From: Archaeoglobales archaeon | GTDB taxonomy: Archaea > Halobacteriota > Archaeoglobi > Archaeoglobales > Archaeoglobaceae | Length of the DNA: 39,883 bases | NCBI GenBank assembly: GCA_003662995.1 | Contig: QMZC01000010.1 | Location: forward strand, 1 to 39,883 | Reading direction: 5' to 3' | In this document: positions 2,258 to 39,641 of the stretch, piece after piece | Position numbering within the stretch: the first letter of the stretch is position 1 | Layout: each line of letters starts with the position of its first letter | Notes under the pieces: generated by a model | The model's input: only the letters and a program-made list of their open reading frames with translations | Told to the model about the DNA's origin: nothing | Database searches by the model: none | Position numbers and translations under genes: made by a program

Positions 2258-2279
2258 TTGCAGGTTTAATCAAGCTTTG

Positions 2280-2295
2280 TAACTCATATGAGTTA
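2280..2295. repeat. Perfect 16-bp palindrome between dehydrogenase and lactamase remnant
   Basis: TAACTCATATGAGTTA is its own reverse complement. It lies 23 nt after the aldehyde dehydrogenase stop and 6 nt before the ATG of the metallo-beta-lactamase remnant. It is different from the padR-type palindrome. It could be a binding site of a dimeric regulator or chance; nothing else supports a role. Confidence 0.35.
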
Positions 2296-2300
2296 TCTCC

Positions 2301-2600
2301 ATGTTTGGTACTCGCCAGAATGCGAGAATGCGCATCTCACTCGATAACTTTGGAGAAACAAACGTTAGAGTAATTCATACTCCTGGTCACTCAGTAGGAC
2401 ATTGTTGCTTTTTAATTGAAGACAATGTTAAAATCATTTATTTGGGAGATATCGATCTAACCTCTTTTGGTCCTTGGTATGGCTGTTTAGATTGCGATGT
2501 GGACGATTTTGTAAACTCTATAAACAATATAGCTGAAGTTGTCGATGCGGAAAAGGTTGAAATAGCAGTTTCGGTAATAGGTGGGCAGTCGTGGGAGTGG
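2301..2600 (+). pseudogene. Metallo-beta-lactamase fold hydrolase, truncated remnant
   Basis: The first 100 codons of this frame encode the middle of a metallo-beta-lactamase fold protein. HTPGHSVGHCCFLIEDN contains the third zinc-ligand histidine region and YLGDIDLTSFGPWYGCLDCD contains the bridging aspartate (GDID). The N-terminal HxHxDH zinc site is absent, and at the C-terminus the final histidine motif appears mutated (AVSVIGG in place of a usual S-S-H-K-G type end). The frame then runs without a stop into the padR gene, so a naive ORF call produces a false fusion. This looks like a dead gene whose 3' part was replaced by the padR promoter region. Confidence 0.6.
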
Positions 2601-2625
2601 AAAATATTATGGCAAGTTGACAGCA

Positions 2626-2650
2626 TATCGGTAACCGATATATTTTTATA
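2626..2650 (+). promoter_or_regulatory. Perfect PadR-type operator and TATA box of padR (autoregulation)
   Basis: TATCGGTAACCGATA at 2626-2640 is a perfect inverted repeat around a central base. A TATA-like TTTTTATA at 2643-2650 follows directly. It ends 33 nt before GTG 2673. Position and symmetry suit negative autoregulation by the dimeric PadR protein encoded just downstream. Confidence 0.7.
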
Positions 2651-2672
2651 CGTTCAAGTCAAAATTAAGCTG

Positions 2673-3149
2673 GTGTCAGAAGCTGAGAAAGATAGGGTAA
2701 GGGGAATTCTGAAGCTTTTAATCCTTAAAGAACTTGAGAAAAGCGATGCTACAGGATACGAATTGATTCAGAAGATTAGTGCCAAAGCGAAGAAGCCATC
2801 ACCAGGCTCCGTATACCCTCTCCTAAAGGAGCTTACCAATGCTGGCTTTCTTAATGTAAGGGTTGAAGGAAACAAGAAGATTTACTCTCTTTCCGAAAAA
2901 GGAAAAGCGGTTTTAGAGGAGGCATCAAAACGGGAAAAGGAGGCAATTCTGAGGAAGATCGAGGTTTTAAAAGCTTCAGGAATTATAAGCGAAGATGAAG
3001 CCAACAAAATGTTCCAATTCATCAGTATGAAAAGAGAACTCTGGATGAAGCTATACGAGCTAAGAAATTGGGCACAATTCATAAACTTACTTGCAGAAAT
3101 TGAAAAGTCGAAATCAGAAGTTGAAGAAATTATCGACGAGGTAATATGA
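2673..3149 (+). CDS. PadR-family winged-helix transcriptional regulator
   Basis: The protein (158 residues from GTG 2673) begins SEAEKDRVRGILKLLILKEL and has the PadR winged helix: helix 1 with LLILKELEKSDATGYELIQ, the recognition region KKPSPGSVYPLLKELTNAGF and a wing VEGNKKIYSLSEKGKAVL. A C-terminal helix of about 70 residues is the usual dimerisation part. PadR proteins are repressors of efflux and detoxification genes that respond to small hydrophobic ligands. GTG 2673 was chosen, not the much earlier in-frame ATG at 2301, because the TATA box and operator lie at 2626-2650 and a leaderless start there fits. Its likely targets are its own gene, the aldehyde dehydrogenase and the DUF169-exporter operon, all with the same palindrome. 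Confidence 0.9.
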   Translation: MSEAEKDRVRGILKLLILKELEKSDATGYELIQKISAKAKKPSPGSVYPLLKELTNAGFLNVRVEGNKKIYSLSEKGKAVLEEASKREKEAILRKIEVLKASGIISEDEANKMFQFISMKRELWMKLYELRNWAQFINLLAEIEKSKSEVEEIIDEVI

Positions 3150-22385: not shown

Positions 22386-22412
22386 ATGAAGAAAAATAAG
22401 GGAGGTGATAGG

Positions 22413-22928
22413 GTGAGGAGAATGGGTTTTATTGAGGATGAGAGGGGTATCAGCAACGTTATAGGTGCAGCACTCTTAGTAGTTGCTGTTGTGCTTGGTG
22501 TTGGTGCACTGATGAGCGCAATGCAGAGCATGACAGACGTTCCAGAAGTGCCTCGCGCACAGTTTGACATCTCAGATCATCCAGATTCTGTAACTGCTGC
22601 TAATGCGAATGGGTTTATAGTCAGACACCTCGGCGGAGATCGCATAAACTACAACGATCTACTGCTTGTTGTTTATGATTCGAATGGCAACAAGATCTAC
22701 AGCAAAATAGTGAGCGATGCAGCTTCAGCAAATGAAGTAACTCAAGATCAGGTTTCCGGTGCACCTTATGACACCAACTTCTTCGAAGGAGGTGAGCAGA
22801 TAATTGCTGCAGCTTCAATTCTAGATCCAAACAATGACGGCACACCTGACGCAGGAACCTATGAGATTGCCTTATACTACAAACCAACGATGTCCGTGCT
22901 GGTGGATAGAAATGTAATGATTTCTTAA
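22413..22928 (+). CDS. Archaeal type IV pilin
   Basis: The mature N-terminus is a class III pilin signature: RRMGFIEDERGISNVIGAAL followed by LVVAVVLGVGALMSA. A prepilin peptidase should cut after the glycine of DERG, leaving the hydrophobic assembly helix. The remaining 130 residues are beta-rich, as in archaeal pilins of the Pilin_N group. GTG 22413 is chosen since GGAGGTGAT at 22401-22409 lies just before it; ATG 22386 is upstream of that site and ATG 22422 slightly far. The pilin is followed by a U-rich terminator. It is probably the major or a minor subunit of the pilus driven by the ATPase downstream. Confidence 0.8.
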   Translation: MRRMGFIEDERGISNVIGAALLVVAVVLGVGALMSAMQSMTDVPEVPRAQFDISDHPDSVTAANANGFIVRHLGGDRINYNDLLLVVYDSNGNKIYSKIVSDAASANEVTQDQVSGAPYDTNFFEGGEQIIAAASILDPNNDGTPDAGTYEIALYYKPTMSVLVDRNVMIS

Positions 22929-22946
22929 TTTTTATTTTTATTTCTT
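22929..22946 (+). terminator. U-rich transcription terminator after the pilin gene
   Basis: TTTTTATTTTTATTTCTT directly follows the pilin stop. Long U tracts are sufficient for termination in archaea. It separates the abundant pilin transcript from the genes that follow. Confidence 0.6.
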
Positions 22947-23124
22947 GGTACTTGCAAGACCCCCTTCCGCAAGGATAGAGTAGTTCACTGGAGTCACTGG
23001 AGATAATCACAATACACTCGGCGTCTGAAGGTGCTTTGTATACCCTTGAGATATTGAGTGAAATGCTCGATTCAATCTTGGAAAAGGATTTAAAACTTAA
23101 AGTAACAAAAACCTAGGTGTAAAT
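22947..23124 (+). other. Intergenic stretch with a short coding-like trace
   Basis: At about 23003-23116 one frame reads ITIHSASEGALYTLEILSEM and continues to LKVTKT and a stop, which looks like the tail of a lost gene rather than noise. No start codon or ribosome site is visible. The promoter of the mntA-like gene should lie near its end (GGATTTAAAACTTAAAG). Confidence 0.3.
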
Positions 23125-23433
23125 ATGATAACAGATGTATCAGTTGATGAAATAAAAAGAATTCTAAAAAAACATGAAAGCGAGCTAAAAGAAAAATATG
23201 GGGTCAAAAAGATCGGTGTTTTTGGATCCTATGTAAGGGGAGGGCAGAAAAAAGGTAGCGATATTGATATTCTCGTTGAATTTTATCCAGATGCTGAGAT
23301 GGATTTAATAAAATTTGTTGAACTTGAAGAATATCTGTCTGATTTATTAGGAATAAAAGTTGATCTGGTAATGAAATCTGCTCTTAAGCCACGGATAGGA
23401 AAGCATATACTGAAAGAGGTAGTTTATATATGA
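23125..23433 (+). CDS. MntA-type nucleotidyltransferase antitoxin
   Basis: The 102-residue protein has the minimal nucleotidyltransferase core: KKIGVFGSYVRGGQKKGSDI with the G-S turn followed by D-I-D-I-L-V, giving the two metal-binding aspartates. Proteins of this group adenylylate the HEPN toxin HepT on a tyrosine and so neutralise it. The stop overlaps the ATG of the HEPN gene (ATGA), the standard layout of the pair. It interrupts the pilus cluster, as a stabilising toxin-antitoxin module of a mobile region might. Confidence 0.9.
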   Translation: MITDVSVDEIKRILKKHESELKEKYGVKKIGVFGSYVRGGQKKGSDIDILVEFYPDAEMDLIKFVELEEYLSDLLGIKVDLVMKSALKPRIGKHILKEVVYI

Positions 23434-23777
23434 AAAGAGAAGTCGGTGACTTTATAGAAGACATTGTTAATGCAATGAACAAAGCATTAAAGTTTGTTGA
23501 AGGTATGTCTTATGAGGAGTTTGCCAAAGATGACAAAACTGTTTTTGCTGTTGTTAGGGCCATTGAAATAATTGGAGAGGCTGTAAAAAACATACCCGAA
23601 GATATAAGGGGGAAATATCCAGAAATTCCCTGGAAAGGGATGACTGGAATGAGAGACAAAGTTATCCATGGATATTTTGGAGTGGACTTGAAAGTTGTGT
23701 GGGATACAGTTAAAAAGAGAATTCCAGAAGTTAAACCGTTGTTTGAAAGAATGTTAGAAGAGTTGGGAGAAGGATAG
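23430..23777 (+). CDS. HepT-type HEPN toxin (DUF86)
   Basis: The 115-residue all-helical protein has the HEPN RNase motif R-x4-H in MRDKVIHGYFGVDLKVVW, with the G-Y-F following the histidine where the modified tyrosine of HepT lies. It also has the DUF86 phrase VVRAIEIIGEAVKNIPEDI. Family members are ribonucleases kept inactive by the paired nucleotidyltransferase. Length and motifs are complete. Translation is coupled to the antitoxin gene. Confidence 0.9.
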   Translation: MKREVGDFIEDIVNAMNKALKFVEGMSYEEFAKDDKTVFAVVRAIEIIGEAVKNIPEDIRGKYPEIPWKGMTGMRDKVIHGYFGVDLKVVWDTVKKRIPEVKPLFERMLEELGEG

Positions 23778-23885
23778 ATTTGACGTTAAGCAGGCTTAAA
23801 CACTCTGCAGTACTCGCACTTGCTTATTATTCTATGCTTGTTTATAATTTTTTAAGCATAAACTTCTTATTTCTCTTTAACTCGA

Positions 23886-23922
23886 AAAAGTATAAATATT
23901 GAGTAGGATGTTAAATATACTT
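23886..23922 (+). promoter_or_regulatory. Promoter of the secretion ATPase gene
   Basis: TATAAAT at 23891-23897 is a canonical archaeal TATA box. Transcription would start near 23918, which favours ATG 23923 as a nearly leaderless start over the earlier TTG 23899 and ATG 23908. Confidence 0.6.
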
Positions 23923-25407
23923 ATGAGTAAAAGTATACCTAAGAGTATAACGATCCGAAAGAAAAAGCCTGTTGAATTCTCTATGAAGGATCTGATCGCG
24001 CAGAGGATACCTCTTGTCGGAGAAGTACCAGAGAAATTTGAAGAGGTTGAGAGGTACTGGCTGCAGAGACCGTATTCAGCAGCAATTATTGTTTCGAACG
24101 ATGAAAAAGGGTACTTCTACTGCGTTTTCGAGCCTGTGGCGGATAACAAAGTTCTGGAGAGCATAAAGATGGAAGTGCTCGAGGCTGTGCCGAATTTCCT
24201 TTATGAGGACGAGGAAAAAACGCTTTTTGAGGCATTTAAGCACGTTGTCAGCAGAAGAATGCTATCAGTCGAAGAGGCATCGGTTCTGTGGTATTACTTA
24301 GAGAGAGACATCCTTAAGGCTGGCAAAATAACCCCCTTTCTGCATGATCCAGAGGTAGAAGATGTTGGATGCAGCGGATACGGCAAACCCATCTTTGTCT
24401 ACCACAGCAGATACGAAAACATGCCAACAAATGTGGTGATGGAGGAAGAGGAAGTAGATGACTTCGTTTTAACAGTTGCGCAGAAAAGAGGCATTGAACT
24501 CAGCATAGCAAATCCCATTGCCGATACAACACTGCACGACGGCAGCAGAATTCAGCTAACCTTCAGAAGTGAAGTGACAGATCATGGATCCACCTTTTCA
24601 GTCAGAAAGATTAGAAGGAATCCGATAACACCTCTTCAGCTGATTAAGTGGGGCACATTTAGTGCTGAGGAAATAGCCTTTCTCTGGCTGTGCCTGGAGT
24701 CGAACAGCAGCATGTTGTTTGCTGGCGGGACAGCCGGTGGAAAAACGACTGCAATGAATGCCATCGCACTCTTCATTCCTCCAAACGCAAAGATTGTTTC
24801 CATAGAGGACACGAGGGAAATAATTCTCCTGCACAAAAACTGGATACCGAGCGTTGCTCGAAGTGCTGACATGTTCTCACTTTTAAAAGTCGCCCTGAGA
24901 CAGAGGCCGGAGTACATCATAGTAGGTGAGGTGAGGGGAAAAGAAGTTGAAGTTATGTTTCAGGCGATGTCCTTGGGTCACACATGCCTTTCGACGATGC
25001 ATGGTGGATCTGCTAAGGCAGTTGTAGACAGGATTACAAGTCCACCTTACTCCGTTCCAAAAACCATGCTTCCCTTTCTTGATCTCATAATTCTGATGGG
25101 TAAGTATTCTATTAGCAAGAAAGTTGTGAGGAGATGTGCAGGAATATGGGATATGGGAGAGGATCCAGATTCCAAAGACTTTTTGAGGCAGATCTTCAGG
25201 TGGGATTCTTCAAAAGATGCCCACATTCAATCCAAACTGCCATTCGAAAAGATAGCGGTGAGAAAAGGGCTGAACATGAAGGAGGTTGAGAAGGAGTTTG
25301 ACAAAAGGGTTAGACTGCTAAAGCATCTTGTCGAGAGCGGGGCAGATTTCATCGATGCTGTTTCAAAATACCACTTCTCTCCTGATGCTGTGGTAGGAGG
25401 TGAATAA
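23923..25407 (+). CDS. GspE/TadA-like type II/IV secretion (pilus) ATPase
   Basis: The 494-residue protein belongs to the archaeal GspE2 group of hexameric assembly ATPases. Walker A is AGGTAGGKTT (residues 267-276), with A-G-G in place of the common S-G-S. The Asp box follows with KIVSIEDTREIIL, Walker B is EYIIVGEVRGKE at about 329-340, and the His box is CLSTMHGGSAKAVVDRI. An N-terminal domain of about 240 residues contains the arginine-bearing segment HGSTFSVRKIRRNPITP. It powers pilus assembly or secretion together with the GspF-like protein encoded two genes on. Its stop is followed within two bases by the next start, so 23923-29659 is one operon. Confidence 0.9.
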   Translation: MSKSIPKSITIRKKKPVEFSMKDLIAQRIPLVGEVPEKFEEVERYWLQRPYSAAIIVSNDEKGYFYCVFEPVADNKVLESIKMEVLEAVPNFLYEDEEKTLFEAFKHVVSRRMLSVEEASVLWYYLERDILKAGKITPFLHDPEVEDVGCSGYGKPIFVYHSRYENMPTNVVMEEEEVDDFVLTVAQKRGIELSIANPIADTTLHDGSRIQLTFRSEVTDHGSTFSVRKIRRNPITPLQLIKWGTFSAEEIAFLWLCLESNSSMLFAGGTAGGKTTAMNAIALFIPPNAKIVSIEDTREIILLHKNWIPSVARSADMFSLLKVALRQRPEYIIVGEVRGKEVEVMFQAMSLGHTCLSTMHGGSAKAVVDRITSPPYSVPKTMLPFLDLIILMGKYSISKKVVRRCAGIWDMGEDPDSKDFLRQIFRWDSSKDAHIQSKLPFEKIAVRKGLNMKEVEKEFDKRVRLLKHLVESGADFIDAVSKYHFSPDAVVGGE

Positions 25408-25408
25408 C

Positions 25409-26548
25409 ATGGTTTCAAAATTTAAAATGCTCTTAAAACCTAAAATTATCTCAGACGATAGAGCTGTCAGTCCCGTTGCTGGCTTCGCCATAATCCTGCT
25501 TACGATAACTGCTGCCTATACATACTACCAAGTAATGATAATTCCTGGAATATGCTCAGCGTACGAATCAAAGCATTTCGCTCAGCTTGAAGACGACTTC
25601 ATACTGCTTACAGCTAAAATCAAGGATGCAATCTTAGAGGGTAAATCGACGAGCGTTATAGTTAAGCTTGGAGCAAGGTATCCAGAAATACCATTCTTTT
25701 CCACACCTTCGGAGTTTTCAGGCACGCTTCAGAGCTATGAGGCGGAGGTTAGAATACAGAACGCTGTCGGTTTGGAAGAAGATATAAAAACTGTATGGGA
25801 CGGCAACGAAGTCGTCTGGACGGGCAGCTCGCTGAGATACATACCAAATTATGCTTTCTCTGATGAAGGATATGTGGTTTATGAATACGGTGTTGTTGCT
25901 GCAGGAAAGAACTCATACTCCTCGCTTGAAGGAGAGTTCATTAACGGAAGAACCATCTTTATACCACTCCTTAAAGTAGAAGTATCAGAGAGCTCAAGCT
26001 CCAATGCAGAGTACACCTTTCACGTTTTCAGCGGCGGGGGCATGGGAATCTCCGTAACGGACAATGGAAATCCAATCAAAATAATCCTGAAAACCTCTCT
26101 GCCCGAAAACTTTTGGAGGGAATATTTAAACGGGTTGAACAGCAGCTACATATCTGATGTAAGCTACAGCAACGGATATGTCACTATTACTTTATCGAGG
26201 GGAGTTATCTACAGACTTTTTGCCGGAGCTGTCAGCCTTGAGAATGAGAGGGCTGAGCAGCACTACTTATACCGTATAACATCAAAGGTTCAAACGGTCC
26301 CGGCTGAGCTTGCTGTTGAGGTGAGAGATATCTTCAACAACCCAGTTCCATGTGCTGAGGTTACTTTTAGGAGCAATTCAACACTCACCGATGGAGAGAA
26401 TACTGCAAAAACACTTACCGTTAAATCGGATGCAAGAGGTGTTGCAGCTGTCGTTGCAAAAGATGTTACCGGCAGCGATGTGGTTGTGGCATCGATAACG
26501 AGGCAAGACAGCACACCGTATGAGGTTGCATTCACGGTTTACGGGTGA
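25409..26548 (+). CDS. Large type IV pilin-like surface protein with C-terminal Ig-like domain
   Basis: The 379-residue protein starts at ATG 25409, five bases after GGAGGTGA. Its N-terminus has a pilin-type signal, DDRAVSPVAGFAIILLTITA, in which the hydrophobic helix follows D-R-A-V-S-P, as in archaeal pilin-like proteins with a variant cleavage site. A large beta-rich exterior domain follows. The last 85 residues, from PAELAVEVRDIFNNPVPCAE to VASITRQDSTPYEVAFTVYG, look like a bacterial Ig-like (Big_1) domain with the D-x-F-x-N-P-V turn. It may be a minor pilin or tip adhesin of the pilus. Its place between ATPase and GspF genes supports that. Confidence 0.7.
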   Translation: MVSKFKMLLKPKIISDDRAVSPVAGFAIILLTITAAYTYYQVMIIPGICSAYESKHFAQLEDDFILLTAKIKDAILEGKSTSVIVKLGARYPEIPFFSTPSEFSGTLQSYEAEVRIQNAVGLEEDIKTVWDGNEVVWTGSSLRYIPNYAFSDEGYVVYEYGVVAAGKNSYSSLEGEFINGRTIFIPLLKVEVSESSSSNAEYTFHVFSGGGMGISVTDNGNPIKIILKTSLPENFWREYLNGLNSSYISDVSYSNGYVTITLSRGVIYRLFAGAVSLENERAEQHYLYRITSKVQTVPAELAVEVRDIFNNPVPCAEVTFRSNSTLTDGENTAKTLTVKSDARGVAAVVAKDVTGSDVVVASITRQDSTPYEVAFTVYG

Positions 26549-26553
26549 TTTTT

Positions 26554-28173
26554 ATGCTCTCGTCAATTCTGCCCGGCGGATACAGTCAGAAGTTGCTTGC
26601 AGAAAACAGAATCAGGTTTCTGTGTGCAGACGTTTCGAATCCTGAAAAATTTCTCAGAAACGTTAGCATAACTGTGCATGTCCTCATGGCTTTTATTGCT
26701 TTAATCACTTTTCAGCTACCTTTGACATTCGAAGCTTATCGCCTTCTCGCTTCTCTGCTGATGTATGCATCTGCTCCCTTAATAGTTAAGCCAGTGGCAT
26801 TATCAATTCTATCTGCAAAGATTTCGTCGCGAAGGGAGAAGATCGAATCCAATTTACATAATGCTCTGGTTGCAATGCTGGGATTTGCAAAGGCTGGTTT
26901 GACAACTTCAGAGATTGTGAGAGAAGTTGCTACAATGGATCTTGGAGAGCTTTCAAAGGAGTTCAGAAGGGTTTACTACGCAACGATCTATGCCGGAATG
27001 AGCCTCAAGGCAGCTCTCCTTTCAGTAGCTGACGCAACACCATCTAAAGAGCTTGGAGAGCTTTTGAGGGGGCTTGTAGGCGTGTCGGAGGCTGGAGGTG
27101 ATGTTGCAAGGTATACAGAGGATAGACTTTCTGCACTTGAGGTAAGCAGAAAGGTTTGGTTTGCCGGCTACATCGGAAGGATTAGACCAATATCTGAAGC
27201 ATATCTTATCGTAACTCTCGTGATACCGATCATGGTGATTGTAATCGAGTCCTCGAAGATGCTGATGGGAAAGGGCTCGGTAGTGGCACTTAAAGGGATT
27301 ATTTACGTGATCATACCTCTCACATCCTTCGCATTAGCAGTGATTCTCAATGCATCGTCTCCAGAAAAAGATGTTGAGAGGAGAGGAATGAACCTCCTAC
27401 TCCTAATCCCAGCTGCATCTGCTGCAGGCTTAACAGCTGGGATTGTGTTAAAGGATGCTGAATTCTGGGGCGTTGCATTGGCGGTAGCATCTTCAGCCTT
27501 AGCAGCTATACTGCTGGAAAGATTTATTGCAGAGGAAAGCAAGATTTCTTCATCCCTACCACACTTCTTTAACCGGACAATTGCTCTGGTTGAGGGTGGG
27601 AAAGATATACCCACCGCATTCAGGATTGCTGCCGCCAATGAGTCTGAACCGCTGGGAAAGTATGTGAAGATTGTTGGAGTAATGCTCGGCAGCATACCAC
27701 GGCATAAAGCATTTGCGTGGCTGTCCAATGCACCGAGCCACGAGTTGAAAATGATTTCTAAGGTGTTAGCGAGGACTGCTTACGTCAGCGGAAGGCTTTC
27801 GGATGTGATGCTGGCAATACTGGGCGAGCTGAACAGAATTTTTGCGTTCAGAAAAGAGAGGCAGTCGATTGCGAGGGGCTTAGAAGGTGTCATGCTCGTG
27901 GCATTTATGCTCTATCTGGGGATATGCGCTCTGATTGCTACATACTTCTTCGCTCAATTCAGCAAATTCACACTGCATCCAGTTGCTGGATTTTCGATCA
28001 ATCTTGCTGTGCTGCCAACGGTAAAGGAGTTGATGAGGCACGCAGGATACATTACAGCCGTGGCAACTAGCGTGGGAATAGCAGCTGTGAAGGGAGACAT
28101 GCGATTCACCGCAAGATATCTTGCTATCCTGCTTTCTGCAGCTCTAATTGTGAACACTGTTTTTCTCTCGTAG
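26554..28173 (+). CDS. GspF/TadC-like pilus assembly membrane protein
   Basis: The 539-residue protein contains two T2SF-type repeats, each with a cytoplasmic helical bundle and membrane helices. The first is NALVAMLGFAKAGLTTSEIV and LLRGLVGVSEAGGDVARYTE; the second is FNRTIALVEGGKDIPTAFRI and LARTAYVSGRLSDVML. About nine membrane helices are visible, as in archaeal FlaJ/TadC-like proteins. It forms the platform on which the ATPase acts. ATG 26554 is preferred, with GGGTGAT four bases before it; GTG 26545 also overlaps the previous stop. Confidence 0.85.
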   Translation: MLSSILPGGYSQKLLAENRIRFLCADVSNPEKFLRNVSITVHVLMAFIALITFQLPLTFEAYRLLASLLMYASAPLIVKPVALSILSAKISSRREKIESNLHNALVAMLGFAKAGLTTSEIVREVATMDLGELSKEFRRVYYATIYAGMSLKAALLSVADATPSKELGELLRGLVGVSEAGGDVARYTEDRLSALEVSRKVWFAGYIGRIRPISEAYLIVTLVIPIMVIVIESSKMLMGKGSVVALKGIIYVIIPLTSFALAVILNASSPEKDVERRGMNLLLLIPAASAAGLTAGIVLKDAEFWGVALAVASSALAAILLERFIAEESKISSSLPHFFNRTIALVEGGKDIPTAFRIAAANESEPLGKYVKIVGVMLGSIPRHKAFAWLSNAPSHELKMISKVLARTAYVSGRLSDVMLAILGELNRIFAFRKERQSIARGLEGVMLVAFMLYLGICALIATYFFAQFSKFTLHPVAGFSINLAVLPTVKELMRHAGYITAVATSVGIAAVKGDMRFTARYLAILLSAALIVNTVFLS

Positions 28174-28174
28174 T

Positions 28175-29659
28175 ATGTTCCTCCTATTTTTGTTAGCTTT
28201 ACTTGCCTTGATTATTCCTGCATCTGCCGATCTGCCCAGATATTACCAGTCAGACGATGCAGATTTGATGGAAAGCTTTAACTCAACGGATCTCAACGAA
28301 ATTGCTGAGCACACCGATATACTTTTCTTAAAGTACCCATCAGCCGTATCAGAGCAGAATAGAAGGTTTATAAGCTCCTTTCCCTCAACTGGTGATGATG
28401 AAAGCGTTATCCCTTTAGGAGTTCAAACAGAAAGCAGTGATGTGATCAGGGATGCATACATTAAACTGATCCCCGTTAATGGGCTAATCAAGACACCTTC
28501 AGCATACTATGCCGATAAAGAAGTCACGATCGGATACGTTGCCGATTACCGCATCGTGCTTCCGCCCGACGATGATGAGGGTGACGTAAGGTACTACTAC
28601 TCCTTAAAGGGGGCAAGCATAACTGTTGAGGTTGAAGGAAAAGTGAGCGGTAGCAAGAAAGATGTTTTTACAGTGCATCCGACAGGAAATACGATAGAGG
28701 CAAAAGCAGAGATTAAAGCTGTCATCAATGTAAGAAAGGAGGTTGACGTTGAGGTTACAAGAAACAACACAACCTACATAGTGACCCACGTATACCACTA
28801 TACCCAGCATCACTCTTTAAGCGTAGCCGACAACATCCCGCTTGAATTCTGCAAACCCTCAGATGTGTATATGCTTAAAGATGAGAAAGGAATTCTAGAG
28901 TACTGGGTCTTTCCAAATCGATTCGTGGCAGAGATACGATCAAATGGGACTGCTGTTGGCGGCCTCATGTCTTTTCTTACATACAGAACGGTGAAGGATG
29001 CAGTAATTAAGCCGTTAAACTCGCATGAGGCTTTGTCAGAACCAGCATACGAGGTGCTCGCGCTTCCAGCATATCAGCTGACATCCAACAATGTGGCAAT
29101 TCTGGACAGAAAGGTGGAAGAGGCAGAGGTAAGTCTTGAAAAGGACTTTACAGTCGGTAGTTTATACAGAGTTAAAGCCCTTAGGATAAGCTTCACGAAA
29201 AATATAGAACTGGTCGATGCCTTTGGAAATGTTCTGTCATGCAACTTGCACGAAAAGTATTATCTGAGGCCTGATGTTGACGTAAAAGTTGAGGATGTAG
29301 GCGATAAGTATGCAGTTACAATAAGGATTTCAGCTACAGAAGAAGCATACAGCGGTCCTGTATACGTTACGGCTGGAAGGAAACAGTTTACACTGAATGC
29401 AAGTGATGGCGTTGTTTCCTTTGAGACGGATAAAGGATACAAAAAAGTTGGATATGCTATACCATCAACATTCATTGGGGAGTGGTATAAAAGCAATAGA
29501 TCCGTATTATTTAAACCTGTTTCAGGAACCTTAATAATAGGAGAGCCCGATTCACTTCTTTTGACGATGTACAAGCTGATCTACATAGGAATAGGAGTTT
29601 TACCATTTGTAATCGCTTATCTCCTTGTGAAGTGGATTCTATATGATGAGAATACGTGA
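28175..29659 (+). CDS. Secreted membrane-anchored protein of the pilus operon, unknown
   Basis: The 494-residue protein has a signal peptide (FLLFLLALLALIIPASA, cut before DLPRY) and a C-terminal membrane helix (LIYIGIGVLPFVIAYLLVKW). The exterior part is beta-rich with no domain I recognise. Residues such as VEVTRNNTTYIVTHVYHYTQ suggest glycosylation sites of N-x-T type. It starts one base after the GspF-like stop, so it belongs to the operon, where it might be a pilus-associated adhesin or an exterior assembly factor. Confidence 0.6.
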   Translation: MFLLFLLALLALIIPASADLPRYYQSDDADLMESFNSTDLNEIAEHTDILFLKYPSAVSEQNRRFISSFPSTGDDESVIPLGVQTESSDVIRDAYIKLIPVNGLIKTPSAYYADKEVTIGYVADYRIVLPPDDDEGDVRYYYSLKGASITVEVEGKVSGSKKDVFTVHPTGNTIEAKAEIKAVINVRKEVDVEVTRNNTTYIVTHVYHYTQHHSLSVADNIPLEFCKPSDVYMLKDEKGILEYWVFPNRFVAEIRSNGTAVGGLMSFLTYRTVKDAVIKPLNSHEALSEPAYEVLALPAYQLTSNNVAILDRKVEEAEVSLEKDFTVGSLYRVKALRISFTKNIELVDAFGNVLSCNLHEKYYLRPDVDVKVEDVGDKYAVTIRISATEEAYSGPVYVTAGRKQFTLNASDGVVSFETDKGYKKVGYAIPSTFIGEWYKSNRSVLFKPVSGTLIIGEPDSLLLTMYKLIYIGIGVLPFVIAYLLVKWILYDENT

Positions 29660-30349: not shown

Positions 30350-31049
30350 CTAAACCTCAACAAATCTCCAATCTTCTCCAATCTTAAACCTCTTAAATCC
30401 CGGCTTTATGTCCATCACTATGCTCTGATCAACTCCAATCACATGTGTTTCTTCAAAACCTGCAAATTCCCCCTCTGTCCTTTCAACCCTTAAAACAACA
30501 TCATAAAATCTCCCCATGAGCTTTTCTGTTCTTTCATCATAGAGCTTTTCATGGTATTTGTTTATTAATGTGATGTTCTCAGAAATTGAGTCGAAAAGCT
30601 TGAGCATATCGATCATAGCCTTTTTCCCATACATGGCAGGAATTATTGAGAAACCGTGGAAGAGTATCACATCATCGTTACCAAGTCTTTTAACAACATC
30701 AACAAACTTTTGCCATTCATAATTTATGAGCTGATAAAGCTCACCAAAAGAAATTCTGTCATTGTTTCCAATTTTTATGATCTTTGCTCTATCAAGCAGC
30801 TTTGCTATATGCGGTGACGTTTCTGCCAGCGATTCATACATTTTCTCAAGCCTTCTGTACATTGTGTCTGAATATACAGCAATAAACAGGTTTTTAGAAG
30901 AAAAGTGTGGGAGTATGTGGTAGAATAGAAGGCTTCTTACCGCATACGGAGAATTGTATACTAACATTACTCTTAATCCATCTAACTTTGAGATCAGTTT
31001 ATTGAGATCAAGAATCTCACCCCCCCCCCCCCGAGCTGACTATGTCCAT
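30350..31049 (-). pseudogene. P-loop-less KaiC-like protein with a G tract after the start codon (frame off)
   Basis: The unbroken part from ATG 30967 has 205 residues, but coding continues upstream: ATG 31049 reads MDIVSSGGGG, the tract of 13 G follows, and after it the other frame gives EILDLNKLISKLDGLRVMLV and joins the main ORF. With 12 or 15 G the gene is open, giving about 232 residues; with 13 it stops after 18. The protein resembles the RecA/KaiC fold without Walker A: a strand-loop NDDVILFHGFSIIPAMYGKK and later GRFYDVVLRVERTEGEF as in KaiC-like proteins. It may be a regulatory partner of the KaiC proteins nearby. It is labelled broken because of the tract, which may be a switch and not decay. 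Confidence 0.55.
31020..31032 (-). repeat. Homopolymer tract of 13 G (minus strand) within a coding frame
   Basis: Thirteen consecutive C on the plus strand encode glycines just after the ATG of the minus-strand KaiC-like gene. The context on the coding strand is CTC-G13-TGAGA, the same as at 32174. Slippage by one base would turn the gene on. Confidence 0.8.
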
Positions 31050-31190
31050 AAATTATACCTCTACAAAAATTTAATAACTTTTTGGCTCAGCATTAATTAA
31101 TTAACACGCTTTCTTGTTTTCATCAACTTCGATATTTATAAAAATATTAAAAATCAAAAAATTAAAGATTAGATGTAATGACTAAAATCC

Positions 31191-31862
31191 ATGAGAGCTT
31201 CCATGGGAATACAAGAGCTCGATGAAATTTTGAATGGTGGTTTGCCAATTCCATCAGCTTTGCTTATCTTGGGAGATGTCGGGTCAGGTAAAAGCGTTTT
31301 GTGTCAGCAGTTTGTTTATGCTCAGGCTAAAGATGGTTTTAATTGCACTTATTTTTGCATAGATCACTCTCCCTACGATATCAGGACGAACATGGAAAGT
31401 TTGGGCTGGAATCCAAAGGATTTTGAGGATAAAGGTTTGATAAAGTTTGTTGATCTATTTGTAGGGAGAGAGGAGTCAGATGAGAAATACCAGGGAAATC
31501 CCAGAGACTACAATGAGCTCGTGTCAGCAATAAAAAGATATTTCATTCAAAATCAGAGGTTTGTTGTTGATTCTATCTCATCAATAGCATTTTTACATGG
31601 AGAAACAAAAGCTTACGATTTAATTCAGAGAATTCACGGTTGGGTTTTGAAAACAAAAGGCGTGGGAATAGTTAATGCTGTAAAAGGCATGCATTCGCAA
31701 TCATTTGAAGTTGCAATCCAACAGGCTTTGGGTAACGCAATAATTCTGGAAAGGGAAGTAGAGTCAGTCTACCTGCATGTTGCAAAAACAACAAGAACGC
31801 CTCATCAAAAGGGTAAGTTTGGTTTGGAAATAGATGAAAAAGGAATAAGAATATTAATTTGA
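31191..31862 (+). CDS. KaiC-like RecA-superfamily ATPase
   Basis: The 223-residue protein is a single-domain KaiC-family ATPase. It begins MGIQELDEILNGGLPIPSAL, has Walker A LGDVGSGKS at residues 27-35, a strand FNCTYFCIDHSPYDIRTNME typical of archaeal KaiC proteins, and Walker B in QRFVVDSISSIAF, although the usual acidic pair is D-S. It may act as a switch by phosphorylation or binding of partners. The gene lies between two P-loop-less KaiC-like genes that carry G tracts. ATG 31191 or 31203 may be the start; no clear ribosome site is visible. Confidence 0.8.
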   Translation: MRASMGIQELDEILNGGLPIPSALLILGDVGSGKSVLCQQFVYAQAKDGFNCTYFCIDHSPYDIRTNMESLGWNPKDFEDKGLIKFVDLFVGREESDEKYQGNPRDYNELVSAIKRYFIQNQRFVVDSISSIAFLHGETKAYDLIQRIHGWVLKTKGVGIVNAVKGMHSQSFEVAIQQALGNAIILEREVESVYLHVAKTTRTPHQKGKFGLEIDEKGIRILI

Positions 31863-31943
31863 TGAGTATATTATTAAGTTTAATAAAACTAAATTTCAGA
31901 TAAAACCGAAAATCATTTAAACTATTCCAGTTTTTTTGCATTC

Positions 31944-32496
31944 GTGCTTGAAGAGGAAAAAATCCTCATAATATCAAAGCCTGGAGTTGAAGGTTATTCT
32001 CTTCTCGCCAAATTAGCTTCTAAACGCGCAATCGTCTGGATTGCCTCAAGCCCCTACATTCCTTCCAAAATTCTTCAGGCTTATTCATGCAATAATGCGA
32101 AGCTTATCAGCTTCACCCCAATGAAGATCAGTCCAATAAACCTCAATGAAATAAGTATAGCGATTTCTAACTCGGGGGGGGGGTGAGAATTGCTGTGTGA
32201 TAATTTCATGCATTTCTGAGCTCATAATGTACCATGGTGTTTCTAAAGTATATCATTTCCTTCTGAACATTTCAAAAAATACAAAAAAGCTGATATGCAT
32301 GATGATCGATGGGGCGCAAAGCAAAAAGGACGAGTTCCTCATTTCAACTCTATTCGATGCAGTCTTCAGACTCGAAAAGAAACTTATAGGTCATGATTGG
32401 GAGATAAGGTTAATTCCAGAGATACACATCCAAAACAGGATGTACAGGCTCAGGTACGCCAAAGGGATAGTTGAAATACATCAAACGAATGAATAA
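31944..32496 (+). pseudogene. P-loop-less KaiC-like protein interrupted by a G tract (frame off)
   Basis: The first frame, from GTG 31944, encodes KILIISKPGVEGYSLLAKLA and KRAIVWIASSPYIPSKILQA, ending in NSGGG and an immediate TGA after ten G. The following frame continues GENCCVIISCISELIMYHGV, then KKLICMMIDGAQSKKDEFLI and LFDAVFRLEKK, and stops at 32496. With nine or twelve G the gene gives about 184 residues. The fold pattern matches the KaiC-like protein at 30350-31049: a RecA-type core with no Walker A. Function unknown; likely a paralogous partner of the neighbouring KaiC proteins, as the next KaiC gene begins 21 bases downstream. Confidence 0.55.
32174..32183 (+). repeat. Homopolymer tract of 10 G within a coding frame
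   Basis: Ten G lie in the context CTC-G10-TGAGA. In the present length the frame reads TCG GGG GGG GGG TGA. Loss of one G gives TCG GGG GGG GGT GAG and restores the long ORF. Confidence 0.8.
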
Positions 32497-32517: not shown

Positions 32518-33887
32518 GTGAAGATTCCTTCCGGCATTCCCGGTTTTGATGAAGTTCTCAAAGGTGGTCTTGAGAAGGGTGGAGTTATTTGATGAAGAGT
32601 GAACCGGGAACGGGAAAAACAATCTTTGGCTTACAGTTTTTGCTTGAGGGAGATAAATCTGTATACATCTCGTTTGATGAGGTGTATGGCGAGGTAATAC
32701 TTCAGGCTGAGAAGTTTGGCTGGGATCTTAGCAAAATTCACTTCATCGACAAGGTTAAGGAGATGGACATTTTGGCGGGAGGCACCATTTTCTACGACTA
32801 CGATGCAGTAGCTGACATAACCGAGTTCATCGAGTCGATAACGAAGCTCGAAGAGCTCGAGGATGTTGAGAGAGTATTTATAGATGGGATGGGTGTTCTG
32901 AGGGATGCGACAAAAAACGAGTCCATTTACCGCAGGATAACCTCCTCGATAGTGAACTTCCTCAACTCCATCGGAGCGACAACGATAATTTCGGCAGAGA
33001 TGACTGATGAGATTGGAAAGGATATAATAAGCTACCGGGATGGAAAGGTTCTCAGAACTGTGGAGGTTCTCAAGTACAGGGGTGGAGATGCCCATCTGGG
33101 CGAACACTACTTCAGCATAACTCCCAAGGGCATCGTCGTATATCCTGTAATCCCCGTTTACAGGCCAAGGAATTTCGAGAGAGCATTGCTTTCAACCGGA
33201 AGTGATGAACTTGACAGACTGCTTGGGGGAGGAATATATAAAGGATCCAAAGTATACATTGCCGGAAAGACAGGGGTCGGAAAGACGAGTTTATGTTTTC
33301 AAATCCTCAAGGAAAACGATGAGAAGGGGAGATTGGGAATCCTTTACGCATTCGACGAGTCTGAGGATATTGTTTTGAGAAAATATGCAGAGATATTCGG
33401 ATACAGGCCGAAGAAATTGATTATAAGGCGGGTTAGAAACATGAGCCTTGGCGAATTCTACAGAATGGTTGTTGAAGATATAGAGTTGAAGCCCGAAATT
33501 GTCGTCATAGATCCCCTCAACGCTGTTGACGAGATGGCAATCTCAACAGATGAATTCCTGTCAATGCTTTCTCTGCTCACAGAACAGCTTGAAATGCTCG
33601 GAATAACCTTCATCGGAACTCAGAAGATCGCCCAGCCTCTGGGCGAGTTCCACTTCACAGGAGTTGGAATTAGCAGGTTTGCAGATTACCTGATTCTGGG
33701 AAGGCATATGGAGATTGGTGGAGAGCTGCTGAAGACGATTGCTGTTGTAAAGAACAGGTTCAGCAATCATGAGAGGACAATAAGAATTCTCGACATGGAG
33801 GATGGTAAGGGGTTAAAGATAGGAGAACCGCTGAAGGAGTACAGCGGACTGATGAGCGGTGTAGTACAAAAGCATATCTCTCCTTAA
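32518..33887 (+). pseudogene. Double-domain KaiC-like ATPase, frameshifted near the start
   Basis: GTG 32518, four bases after GGGAGGTGG, starts KIPSGIPGFDEVLKGGLEKG and GVI, then meets TGA at 32590. The next frame begins at once (stop and ATG overlap as TGATG) with MKSEPGTGKTIFGLQFLLEG, so one missing T in GTTATTTGATG explains the break. The whole would have about 456 residues with two KaiC domains. Walker A of the first is SEPGTGKT and of the second AGKTGVGKTS; Walker B strands are ERVFIDGMGVL and EIVVIDPLNAVDE. The break falls just before the first P-loop. TGATG could also allow re-initiation, giving a protein lacking only the first 24 residues. Confidence 0.75.
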
Positions 33888-34174: not shown

Positions 34175-35416
34175 CTATCTAACCTCCTCACCGAGCCAGA
34201 CACGGGGGCTGACATCCCCGCCAGCTCTGGAAAACTGGGGCTGAGTGCTGAGAGTGGAAACAAAAACAAAGCCCCGCTCCAGAGCCAGAGTTGCAATATT
34301 CCTACTCGCAGTTCTATCAGGGTTAGCCTCATAACCACATTTCCTGCACTTGAACAGTTTTCTTTTGTTGTCAAAGAACACCCAATTTCGTTTGCCCGTA
34401 TAACCACACTTAGGACACTTCTGCGAAGTCTTTGTAGCTGGAACTTCAACGACATCGATTCCATTCTGCCATGCCACAGATTGTATAGTAATCCTGAATT
34501 TGGCGAATGGTATGCGATGGATTCTCCTGTTTGCTCTCTTAGGCTTCTTACCCTTCCCATTCCTCTCTCTGAGGTTCTTGAGTTTCTCGATAGCTATAAC
34601 TGCATCATATCTCATTGCGATTTCAACAATTTCATGTGCTATTTGCCAGATTCTTGTATTGACAAAGTTTCTTTCTTTACCTCTAAGCTTCCGCAAAGCT
34701 CGCTGAGCCTTGCGGTTTCCTTTGTCTGCATAACTTTTGAGCTTGCTCCTTCGTTTCATAAACTTCCATTGCTTATGCCATATGTCCTGTCCCAAATAAA
34801 GCTGTTTCAGAGCTTTTCTACTCAAAACCGTAACAGCAAAGCTACCACTATTAACATCAACCCCTACAACTGCTTGATACTCTGTCTTAACCTTAAACTT
34901 CTTTTTGAGGTTTACAATGACAACGTATTGACCATTCTGCTTGTGCAATCTGAATTGAGTATATTTCCACCCATCATTAATGTGTTCTATAAATCTCTTA
35001 TAAGCACCATCCTGCTTTATTGGCATAGCGATTCTACCATTTCCATTGAACGAAGAAATAACAACAACAGGATTTCCTCGTTTGGTTTTGCTGAATTTAC
35101 CAGAACGGGGGATATTGAATCTGATTGGAACTTGCTTAAATCTATCTTTAATTGTCTTGTAGTTTTCCCATACTTGATGGATGCAATCAACGAGGATTTG
35201 AGAATGAAGGTTGTATTTTTGCTTGATAATAGGATAGGAGGTGGTGTGTAGAATGGCGAAGTTTTTAGGAGATTTGGATTTAGCAATTGCTAAAACATCG
35301 TTACAGCAAGCGATGACAGAGTTAAATAGCGTAGATAACAAGCGTTCTTTCCTATTTGATAAAGGAAGTAGATTGAGTTTCAGAGATTTAACTACCTCTC
35401 TTTCCACTCTCAGCAC
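34175..35416 (-). CDS. tnpB: TnpB RNA-guided nuclease (IS200/IS605 OrfB)
   Basis: The protein has 413 residues from GTG 35416; the frame is open further up but without family resemblance. The RuvC-like site is complete: D187 in AVVGVDVNSGSF, E277 in AVIAIEKLKNLRER and D367 in GYEANPDRTASRN. The zinc finger between them has C334-P-K-C337 and C357-R-K-C360. TnpB cuts DNA next to a target-adjacent motif with a guide RNA made from the element's end, which helps the element persist. The C-terminal tail (FVFVSTLSTQPQFSRAGGDV) is the usual low-complexity end that overlaps the RNA. It appears functional, in contrast to the many broken genes around. No tnpA is near, so movement would need help. Confidence 0.9.
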   Translation of the reverse strand: MLRVEREVVKSLKLNLLPLSNRKERLLSTLFNSVIACCNDVLAIAKSKSPKNFAILHTTSYPIIKQKYNLHSQILVDCIHQVWENYKTIKDRFKQVPIRFNIPRSGKFSKTKRGNPVVVISSFNGNGRIAMPIKQDGAYKRFIEHINDGWKYTQFRLHKQNGQYVVIVNLKKKFKVKTEYQAVVGVDVNSGSFAVTVLSRKALKQLYLGQDIWHKQWKFMKRRSKLKSYADKGNRKAQRALRKLRGKERNFVNTRIWQIAHEIVEIAMRYDAVIAIEKLKNLRERNGKGKKPKRANRRIHRIPFAKFRITIQSVAWQNGIDVVEVPATKTSQKCPKCGYTGKRNWVFFDNKRKLFKCRKCGYEANPDRTASRNIATLALERGFVFVSTLSTQPQFSRAGGDVSPRVWLGEEVR

Positions 35417-35464
35417 CCAATATGGAATTGTAGTTAAAAATACAAATAAATTTCGCCAATCCCT

Positions 35465-35484
35465 CCTATGGTTAAAACCATGGG
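35465..35484 (-). other. Imperfect palindrome at the left end of the tnpB element
   Basis: CCTATGGTT and AACCATGGG pair over nine positions with one G-U around a two-base loop, about 50 bases upstream of the tnpB start. It probably marks the element's left end. Confidence 0.4.
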
Positions 35485-35581
35485 CTTCCTTGGCGATAGG
35501 AGTGTGAAGATGCAAAATAATGGGTCGGGAAGGCCGGAGTAAAATTATCCCCGCTCGCATGGAGACTTCTCTCCGATTTAG

Positions 35582-37069: not shown

Positions 37070-38311
37070 TTAACGCTTGGCTGTTTCCAATTTTTTAATA
37101 ATCATTTCTGCTAACTGTTCTGGACTTTTCTCCTTTCCATCAACATAGCTGATAGTAGGTCTAATTCCAGGTACTTCTGTATCATTAAGTTTAACGGGTA
37201 GGATATATTCCCTTTGTTCTTGAAAAGCTCGTGCTTGTGCACTTCTACGCTCATGAGTGGTCCATACTTTACTAGCGTAATGTTTAGAAATAAACATTAC
37301 ACAATAACGCCCCTTCCTTCTATAAATCTCATCAAAATGCTCGTATAAGTCCTTTCCCCAAAGGTTTACCTCTTCAAACTTATCGTAAAACACTTTTACA
37401 CCTCTTTCTTTAAGAATGTTCGCAACCACCTCTACGTGCTCACGATCCTCACCTGCAAATGAAAGTACTACATCATATTCAAAAGCCTGTGTAGAGGTGG
37501 ATGGGTAATCCTTTGTAAATTCTTCTTTCCTCTCTATTAGGTCTCCTACTTTCCACGAACGTTTGTAGATTTCTCCGAGAGTATTGCTTCTTACTACAAT
37601 GATTATTTCATCATCTGGCGCTAGTTCTTCTGTGAATGTATGATCCAAATTGCAACTCACAAAGCTACCATCATGTTCGCGACACGGTAAACCTCTGATG
37701 TTGAAAGAGGGATTTTCGATAGTTTTTCTCTTCCTTCTTAATGCAAACTGGAACTTGAGCTTATTCTGCAACTTCTTATGAAGTTTAAATGATAAGTGAA
37801 TATCCATTCCATTCAAAATTGGTAAATCTAACTTGAAGTATATGGGTAATGTGAAAATGACGTTTATGGAGAATGGAAGAACCTCAGGTAATCTTAACCA
37901 TTGAGCTCCAACACCTTCTAGACCCTCAAAAATTGCCAATTCTTCTTTTATTCTTTTCTCGATATTTCTATAACATTTTGGCGAACTTCCGGAAAACGTC
38001 TGTTTAGCATGAAACTCATAACTTATTCCTTGATATCCCTCATACTCTCCAAAAGGCTCAATTCTATATCCTCCCCTTATATCTTCTCTTTTGTATCCCT
38101 CTCTTAGCTGGATAACTTTATCATCTAGCGTAATTTTACCTCTCCGCATCTCCTCAATGTATTTTGGTGTCTTCTTTGCCTCAACAATCTCATATGGTAG
38201 AGATAAATCTTCAATTTCAGTTACACCTTTTCGCCTAAGATTCTCATACTCAGCCTCTACTTCTGTTTTAACATCATCTACGTCTCTTTCACTGAGAAAA
38301 GCGACAGTCAT
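37070..38311 (-). CDS. TIR-domain protein with a novel N-terminal domain, paired with HerA
   Basis: The 413-residue protein ends with a TIR domain (residues 279-413): YDVVLSFAGEDREHVEVVAN starts the fold, NLWGKDLYEHFDEIYRRKGR carries the likely catalytic E324, and VMFISKHYASKVWTTHERRS follows. This pattern matches TIR_2 proteins that degrade NAD+ in bacterial and archaeal defence. The N-terminal 270 residues are not recognised. In the same frame upstream, ATG 38425 opens 34 codons (MSSPEIGFDELWNELGDCYN...) that end in TAG four codons before ATG 38311, so the real gene may start at 38425 and be cut by a stop, or ATG 38311 may be used. The HerA gene lies directly upstream, so the two form an operon. 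Confidence 0.8.
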   Translation of the reverse strand: MTVAFLSERDVDDVKTEVEAEYENLRRKGVTEIEDLSLPYEIVEAKKTPKYIEEMRRGKITLDDKVIQLREGYKREDIRGGYRIEPFGEYEGYQGISYEFHAKQTFSGSSPKCYRNIEKRIKEELAIFEGLEGVGAQWLRLPEVLPFSINVIFTLPIYFKLDLPILNGMDIHLSFKLHKKLQNKLKFQFALRRKRKTIENPSFNIRGLPCREHDGSFVSCNLDHTFTEELAPDDEIIIVVRSNTLGEIYKRSWKVGDLIERKEEFTKDYPSTSTQAFEYDVVLSFAGEDREHVEVVANILKERGVKVFYDKFEEVNLWGKDLYEHFDEIYRRKGRYCVMFISKHYASKVWTTHERRSAQARAFQEQREYILPVKLNDTEVPGIRPTISYVDGKEKSPEQLAEMIIKKLETAKR

Positions 38312-38323
38312 GATATTTTCCTA

Positions 38324-38425
38324 TACATTTCCTTTTCTCGCTGCCAGACAGCGAATGCTAAGGGAGTTGTAGCAATCTCCTAACTCGTTCCACAGTTCGT
38401 CAAAGCCTATCTCAGGAGATGACAT
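38324..38425 (-). other. 34-codon leader ORF in frame with the TIR gene
   Basis: ATG 38425 encodes MSSPEIGFDELWNELGDCYN, then SLSIRCLAARKGNV, and ends at TAG. It lies 34 bases after the HerA stop and is exactly in frame with the TIR ORF (114 bases upstream). The peptide looks like a genuine protein N-terminus. The TAG could be a nonsense mutation, a read-through site or mark a separate small gene. Confidence 0.5.
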
Positions 38426-38459
38426 GTTAAAACCCAGCCATTGTTATTATCAAAAATTT

Positions 38460-39641
38460 TTAAATTCTCTCCCATGTAGGGATTATTCTTAATTTTACTT
38501 TCTCTTCCCCAATTATCAATATACCTTCACCCTGTTTGAGATTTAAAAGCTCTTTTTCGCCAACTCCAAAGAACTTATCATTCTTTCTGGCTTGCTCTTT
38601 GTTTTCAGCCTTCATACAAAGTTTTACAGCAACGTTGGATAATATCTCATCTGTGAAGTGAGATATCAATTGAGATGCCAGTATTAAACCAACGCCAAAC
38701 TTTCTTAGTTCAGTTGCATATTTATTCAAGACAGCTTTATAGCCTTGTTTTTCACTTACAAGCAATTTAGCTTCATCGACAATAACAAACAATCTAAATC
38801 TCTCTTTGTCTGTTATGTTACCACGGGGTATCTCACCAAGGGCTTGTAAGGAGTAGTATATTTTTCTCAGAAACAGATCTGCATACAAAGATTTCAAAGA
38901 TTCTGGCAAAGGTCTCAAGTTTAGGTGTGTTATTCCCCCTTCAAGAATACTACCCACCGATATTTTCTCAGAACCTGAAAACAACTCGTAGTCAAAAATA
39001 TCATTCAAATAAGCTTTAAGACTTTGAGTTGTTTTGTCCTCACTAGACTTTATTTCATCTTCAATCTCCTTAAACTTTAATTCTCTGCTCCACGTTTCTT
39101 TATCGCTTGTTATCCCTGCCTTTTTATAGGCTCTTTTGACAATCTCTTTCAAATCATTTCTTTGCTGGATGCCTAGCGTCGGGAAATTTATGAAGATACT
39201 ATCTACAAAATCAGCAGTAGCTTTAAGAGGAGTGATCTCCTCAAATTTTGGATCGAGTTCAAGTGGATTAAAGTAATATTTGCTACCCTCTTTTATCTCA
39301 CAGGTTCTTATGTTGCAACCTTCGCAAGCCATATCTCCATGAAAATCCACCATTAAAACTGGATATCCTTGTTTATCTAATTCAGAGGCAATACATCTGA
39401 TTGTTTCTGTCTTTCCAGCTCCAGAACCACCTATGATTATAAAGTGTCCATTGTTCAGTTTACCCGGTTCCCAAAAAATTTTCTCATCATCTGAATAGCC
39501 AAGAAAAACCTCGATAGTATCCTTTTTATCAGGTTTCTCTGATTCAATTGTAATATGGACTCTTTTTTCAGACTCTTTAGGAGCTGTAACTTTTAGCGTT
39601 TCCTCAACAACTCCTTCCAATCCGTAAAACAAAGGTTGCAA
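38460..39641 (-). CDS. HerA/FtsK-like translocase ATPase (DUF87), paired with TIR gene
   Basis: The 393-residue protein has Walker A IIGGSGAGKTET at about 70-80, a strand PVLMVDFHGDMACEGCNIRT, Walker B FRLFVIVDEAKLLVSE and the sensor region VGLILASQLISHF, all as in the HerA group of hexameric ATPases. The start is set at TTG 39641, but coding-like sequence in the same frame (HSPEEFIEEVISLANLENLK) continues to a stop at 39753-39755 without ATG or GTG, so the N-terminus is uncertain and may be mutated. HerA proteins next to SIR2 or nuclease genes act in antiviral complexes; the adjacent TIR gene suggests a related HerA-TIR system that depletes NAD+. Confidence 0.8.
   Translation of the reverse strand: MQPLFYGLEGVVEETLKVTAPKESEKRVHITIESEKPDKKDTIEVFLGYSDDEKIFWEPGKLNNGHFIIIGGSGAGKTETIRCIASELDKQGYPVLMVDFHGDMACEGCNIRTCEIKEGSKYYFNPLELDPKFEEITPLKATADFVDSIFINFPTLGIQQRNDLKEIVKRAYKKAGITSDKETWSRELKFKEIEDEIKSSEDKTTQSLKAYLNDIFDYELFSGSEKISVGSILEGGITHLNLRPLPESLKSLYADLFLRKIYYSLQALGEIPRGNITDKERFRLFVIVDEAKLLVSEKQGYKAVLNKYATELRKFGVGLILASQLISHFTDEILSNVAVKLCMKAENKEQARKNDKFFGVGEKELLNLKQGEGILIIGEEKVKLRIIPTWERI

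Follow-up and report, generated by a model that had tools for sequence, protein, structure and literature searches.

Two neighbouring signalling-type genes on a contig from an uncultured archaeon are each disrupted by a single surplus nucleotide within a very long run of guanines, which raises the question whether these runs serve as a genetic switch. Phase variation by poly-G tracts is a textbook strategy of bacteria, mostly of pathogens, and poly-G contingency loci occur in Campylobacter, Helicobacter and Neisseria. A partial search of the literature yielded no report of poly-G switching in an archaeal gene; as far as it shows, systems of this kind are known from bacteria, and neither an archaeal host nor a KaiC context has been described before. 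The window, i.e., the whole stretch of DNA analysed here (39,883 nucleotides), is the entire contig 10 of an archaeal assembly with 2,609,224 bases on 187 contigs and a completeness of 97%. The features of the locus are compiled in Table 1.

Table 1. Coordinates of the two G tracts, the genes that carry them and the surrounding features in the window.
Feature	Position	Strand	Remarks
Type IV pilus-type locus	22386-29659	+	Upstream of the KaiC cluster; profile matches
Archaeal pilin	22386-22928	+	Within the pilus-type locus
T2SSE ATPase	23899-25407	+	Within the pilus-type locus
T2SSF membrane protein	26545-28173	+	Within the pilus-type locus
Big_1-like protein; protein without assigned family		+	Members of the pilus-type locus
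Gene A	30350-31049	-	232 aa at 12 G; unnamed archaeal family without Pfam match; 69% identical homologue in genome G006
Internal-ATG open frame of gene A	30350-30967	-	205 aa; may yield a truncated product at out-of-frame tract lengths
G13 tract	31020-31032	-	Gene A, codons 6-10 (C13 on the plus strand); TGA directly behind at 13 G
KaiC-family ATPase	31191-31862	+	Intact, 223 aa; between the tracts; PF06745, E=6e-36
Gene B	31944-32496	+	183 aa at 9 G; weak DUF835/DUF7504 (inactivated KaiC-like) family
G10 tract	32174-32183	+	Gene B, variable loop preceding the conserved strand VIISCISEL; TGA directly behind at 10 G
C-terminal open frame of gene B	32197-32496	+	99 aa; GTG start about 10 nt past the SD-like tract end GGGGGTGA
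Two-domain KaiC gene	32518-33887	+	Frameshifted; one base missing near 32588-32590 (TTT), upstream of Walker A

An earlier note on this DNA had described a 13-G tract in a minus-strand gene (gene A) and a 10-G tract in a plus-strand gene (gene B), both in coding sequence with the common context CTC-Gn-TGAGA, and had stated that one G too many breaks each frame, with 12 and 9 G giving full-length genes. Coordinates and sequence confirmed both statements. Starting from the ATG at 31049-31047, gene A encodes MDIVSSGGGG followed by TGA with 13 G, and 232 open codons with 12 G. Gene B, which starts with GTG at 31944, encodes 80 amino acids before TGA with 10 G, and 183 open codons with 9 G. Neither gene contains a further lesion once the tract is set in frame. 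A surplus of one G in both genes has a chance of one in nine at random lengths and is uninformative alone. Eight flanking bases are common to both tracts (31015-31035 vs. 32171-32188) despite the unrelated genes in which they lie, and the tract context has just two other matches in the genome, neither of which is a tract.

The tally of all G/C runs of at least seven nucleotides in the genome comprised 42 runs: 36 of seven, three of eight and one each of nine, 10 and 13. No other G/C run of the 2.6-Mb assembly is as long as the G13 and G10 tracts, which are located 1.14 kb apart. Extrapolation of the run spectrum predicts only 0.04-0.3 runs of at least 10 and fewer than 0.003 runs of at least 13 genome-wide; no dinucleotide-shuffled version of the window contained as many 8-G matches as the real one. 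Run spectrum, expectation and shuffles together rule out chance composition as the origin of the tracts. Codon use cannot account for them either, since GGG makes up 15% of the glycine codons and none of the 29 runs of at least three glycines found in sampled long ORFs begins with GGG-GGG-GGG.

Both genes had been called KaiC-like in the earlier note, a label which holds in part for gene B only. The gene B product weakly resembles DUF835, which is described as an inactivated KaiC domain (PMC5847659), with 21.6 bits (Pfam cut-off 33.1); this match below the cut-off was the only one, and the KaiC profile PF06745 was not matched. Within the gene B family, DUF835 was detected at an E-value of at most 0.05 in seven of 12 aligned members. 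For gene A the label does not apply: its product matched no family among the Pfam profiles, PF06745 included, and a profile comparison with the neighbouring KaiC protein detected no similarity. Searches by sequence found no relatives of solved structure for either family, and the single-sequence fold of the open part of gene A (pLDDT 41.6) was of too low confidence for use.

The tract of gene B encodes glycines in a loop flanked by the conserved elements NLNEISIAIS and VIISCISEL, where homologues vary in length. The best homologue is 56% identical, and the closest one carries AGGGK in the loop, encoded by GCG GGA GGT GGA AAG and devoid of a G run. Identities at the three codon positions in comparison with genome G035 were 0.65/0.76/0.30 and 0.68/0.78/0.34 in the two halves of the gene. 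The halves are equally constrained, and gene B has therefore been a single working unit until recently or is one still. A junction artefact at the poly-G tract is unlikely, as the homology crosses the tract without loss. Of the 55 genomes of the family, 25 contain a homologue of gene A (best identity 69%), and comparison of these homologues places the tract within the non-conserved N-terminus. Downstream of it, the codon-position identities with the G006 homologue were 0.78/0.88/0.49. A junction artefact is unlikely here as well, since the start MDI resembles MEI of the G006 homologue, an argument which is weaker than that for gene B. An in-frame G9 gene in genome G014 is somewhat similar to gene A, with a profile similarity too weak for a link.

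The product of the intact gene between the tracts belongs to the KaiC family with 124.4 bits against PF06745 (cut-off 26.6); NCBIfam KaiC/ArlH profiles are also matched, below the cut-off. For the frameshifted two-domain KaiC gene an intact homologue of 479 aa with 73% identity was found in genome G064. A KaiC paralogue on contig C47 (L222, about 1600-3030), likewise with two domains, is also frameshifted, with a single T missing in comparison with intact homologues. In total, the genome yielded 11 matches to the KaiC family. KaiC ATPases are frequently encoded in the vicinity of type IV pilus loci (PMC4858521). Inside the pilus-type locus of the window lies a HepT/nucleotidyltransferase pair of the toxin-antitoxin type (23125-23777). 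Downstream of the KaiC cluster, a gene for a TnpB-type RNA-guided nuclease of the IS605 family (34175-35560) was detected, and on the minus strand (37070-39641) a TIR-domain protein adjoins a HerA/VirB4-like ATPase, which may represent a defence pair.

To judge the reliability of the assembled frames, all 42 runs of at least seven G/C in the genome were examined. Among the clearly coding G7-G8 runs, 31 of 34 were in frame, for example in genes which, from their sequence, presumably encode replication factor C, a DNA polymerase and a tRNA amidotransferase. The three broken runs affect a GT2 glycosyltransferase (C5), a gene of no named function (C2) and an enoyl-CoA hydratase (C17) that is broken at G7 and matches successive sections of a single Pfam profile with its two halves. 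For two further runs on C29, both close to the end of a gene, the frame is ambiguous. A homology-based frameshift test covered 117 kb of the genome's own sequence aligned to relatives, mostly G006, and gave four candidates. Two of them, gene B and the GT2 gene, are credible gene-breaking frameshifts and both are located at G runs; the other two were rejected as a decayed transposase and as an antisense or adjacent-gene artefact. When the test was reversed, 137 kb of G006 revealed no frameshift. Broken frames were no commoner at A-runs of six to seven than at short runs; T-runs of six to seven scored higher, with small numbers and a criterion that also merges neighbouring genes. A generally indel-ridden assembly is thus ruled out by frameshift test and frame survey, because G7-G8 runs are mostly in frame, frameshifts are few and A-runs show no excess. 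A systematic error of one additional G was not seen, since the other broken runs require either +1 or -1. The length of a 13-G run in an assembly is not reliable to one base.

Two other loci of the genome may be mentioned here. Glycosyltransferases are classical phase-variable genes, and the GT2-type membrane glycosyltransferase (L106, 17900-19260; C5, G7 at 18258) is frameshifted at its G7 run, with an intact homologue in G006. On C29 (22359-26071; L115, 15860-19572) four G/C runs of seven to nine occur within 3.3 kb in tandem paralogues without known function, one of which is frameshifted at T7, and another may be one G off near its end.

In the family as a whole, runs of at least nine G are few per genome and recur across the genomes. 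Two closed genomes contain genes split by G9: in G023 (C1, 174964) the run divides OppD, with positions 2-34 of the ABC profile before and 38-137 after it, and in G033 (C1, 2094693) it divides a gene of 590 codons. Moreover, G9 breaks a transporter gene, presumably of MMPL type, in G031 (C25, 68749), and G10 breaks a methyltransferase gene in G032 (C38, 10482). Other runs of at least nine in the family are in frame, e.g., a 14-G run in G076 (C6, 7757-7770; L201), in a gene that we take to encode a PAS-like sensor. According to our own classification, coding runs of at least nine are broken in 6 of 13 cases, compared with 3 of 34 for runs of seven to eight (p=0.008); without the two tracts of the window the ratio is 4 of 11 to 3 of 34 (p=0.05). 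Runs of about 49 G at the start of contig C68 in G032 and about 36 G at the end of contig C181 in G069 are probably sequencing artefacts.

In profile searches of the genome neither a NucS above the cut-off nor a MutS_I was found, and MutS_V gave only a half-length match. The lack of a recognisable MutS1 or NucS is consistent with a weak repair of slippage in this archaeon; archaeal repair is incompletely known. No second strain was found in collection scans, the same-genus genome G001 contains no match to gene A or gene B, and closely similar loci were absent from the plasmids and the other genome contigs searched.

From the sequences compared here, the best explanation appears to be that genes A and B vary in phase through slippage at their tracts and that the assembly has captured each of them in the off state; we assign it a probability of about one half. 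The G runs would act as slippage-prone mononucleotide repeats inside both genes, at which the polymerase presumably inserts or deletes a G in the cells. With 12 or 9 G, or lengths differing from these by three, a full-length protein would be made; with other lengths translation would end soon after the run. Each gene could thereby be turned on or off in a heritable and probably reversible manner, and in the assembled consensus neither would be expressed at full length. The intervening KaiC ATPase is probably a partner of gene B and possibly of gene A as well, so that a KaiC-type signalling module next to a type IV pilus locus would be subject to the switch, perhaps with a pilus-related output. 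This explanation, already proposed in the earlier note, is favoured because the halves of the genes are intact, the assembly appears sound overall, the loop in gene B is tolerant and relatives carry genes broken at long G runs. As in contingency loci, the mononucleotide runs are exceptionally long and lie in coding sequences which are intact save for the run and in frame at some lengths. Retention of the tract in relatives, a supporting rather than strictly defining property of such loci, was not observed: no relative has a G run at the site of gene A or of gene B, and judging from these comparisons both tracts are specific to the lineage of the present genome. Against a switch speak the missing Ts in the two-domain KaiC gene and in its C47 paralogue, which lie outside G runs and are not explained by slippage at such runs. 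Our confidence is reduced because these lesions suggest decay of the KaiC family or scattered errors.

Gene decay and errors in tract length are the two serious rivals. Under relaxed selection on the KaiC cluster in this lineage, the G runs would be neutral expansions in dispensable genes and the frameshifts recent pseudogene lesions. This would agree with the large KaiC family of the genome and with the finding that three of the four cluster genes and the C47 paralogue have a single frameshift apiece, two of the four being missing Ts. However, there is only a single lesion per gene, the halves have kept their coding constraint, and neutral drift would not easily place a genome's two longest G runs next to each other; we regard decay as rather unlikely, though the lesions outside G runs speak in its favour. 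Alternatively, the genes may be intact in the cells, with the long G runs miscounted by one and the single-T gaps of the two KaiC genes arising likewise. Runs of 10 to 13 G are easily miscounted, the assembly consists of 187 contigs, and two related assemblies contain the artefact-like runs of 36-49 G at contig ends. Nevertheless, shorter homopolymers are mostly in frame, genes broken at G9 occur in closed genomes of the family too, and the runs are exceptional even if their count is wrong, which makes a pure length error unlikely.

RNA polymerase or the ribosome might slip on the G run and yield some full-length protein from an out-of-frame gene; polymerases and ribosomes are known to slip on homopolymers (PMC3711429). 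As the tracts are conserved in no relative, contrary to what is expected of programmed sites, and differ in length between genes A and B, such recoding is improbable. The tract end GGGGGTGA resembles a ribosome binding site and could drive separate translation of the downstream part, for which the GTG behind the tract in gene B, where re-initiation may take place at 32197, and the internal ATG in gene A would be available. Since each homologue of gene B runs through the site as one uninterrupted protein, we consider genuinely split genes very improbable. The earlier note had also suggested that recombination between the tracts could invert the KaiC segment. The tracts do form a perfect 15-nt inverted repeat with a spacing of 1144 nt, but the arms are very short and mostly G, a recombinase gene was not found among the neighbours scanned, and an inversion would swap the front parts of two unrelated genes, with relatives supporting the present contiguity of gene B as native; this suggestion is hardly credible.

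Compared with the loci of Campylobacter, Helicobacter and Neisseria, the genes described here share a long coding G run, lengths in and out of frame, an otherwise intact gene and the occurrence of several such genes per genome. They differ in the archaeal host, in the small number of tracts per genome and in being known from assembled sequence. Moreover, they belong to a KaiC cluster instead of encoding surface structures or modification enzymes, although a glycosyltransferase is broken in the genome, too. In a survey including 18 archaeal genomes, homopolymer tracts in prokaryotic genes were recognised as inactivation-prone sites (PMC2831843); there, short poly-A/T tracts were overrepresented, whereas the long G runs of this study form a separate class. 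The sections of PMC5847659 and PMC4858521 on archaeal KaiC/DUF835 signalling and on pilus-adjacent KaiC ATPases present the same combination of a KaiC ATPase, here with a weakly DUF835-like protein, and a pilus-type locus. Repeat-tract switching is not mentioned in these sections, and gene A is a member of no named family. Phase variation in an archaeal setting is also on record for the haloarchaeal virus phiCh1, as cited in a passage of a review on tyrosine recombinases (PMC8371274); by that account it is a viral case and does not involve a homopolymer tract.

Since the family includes closed genomes with broken genes, phase variation by poly-G slippage can be tested directly in cultured strains. 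It is conceivable, if doubtful at present, that a family of apparently mismatch-repair-poor archaea randomly switches genes in this way, including a KaiC module in the neighbourhood of a type IV pilus locus, and that cells of equal genotype thereby differ in signalling or surface behaviour. If confirmed, the finding would provide a natural test of repeat handling in archaea without recognisable MutS1 or NucS, and it would add free-living archaea to the hosts of contingency loci and tie such loci to the archaeal KaiC signalling network.
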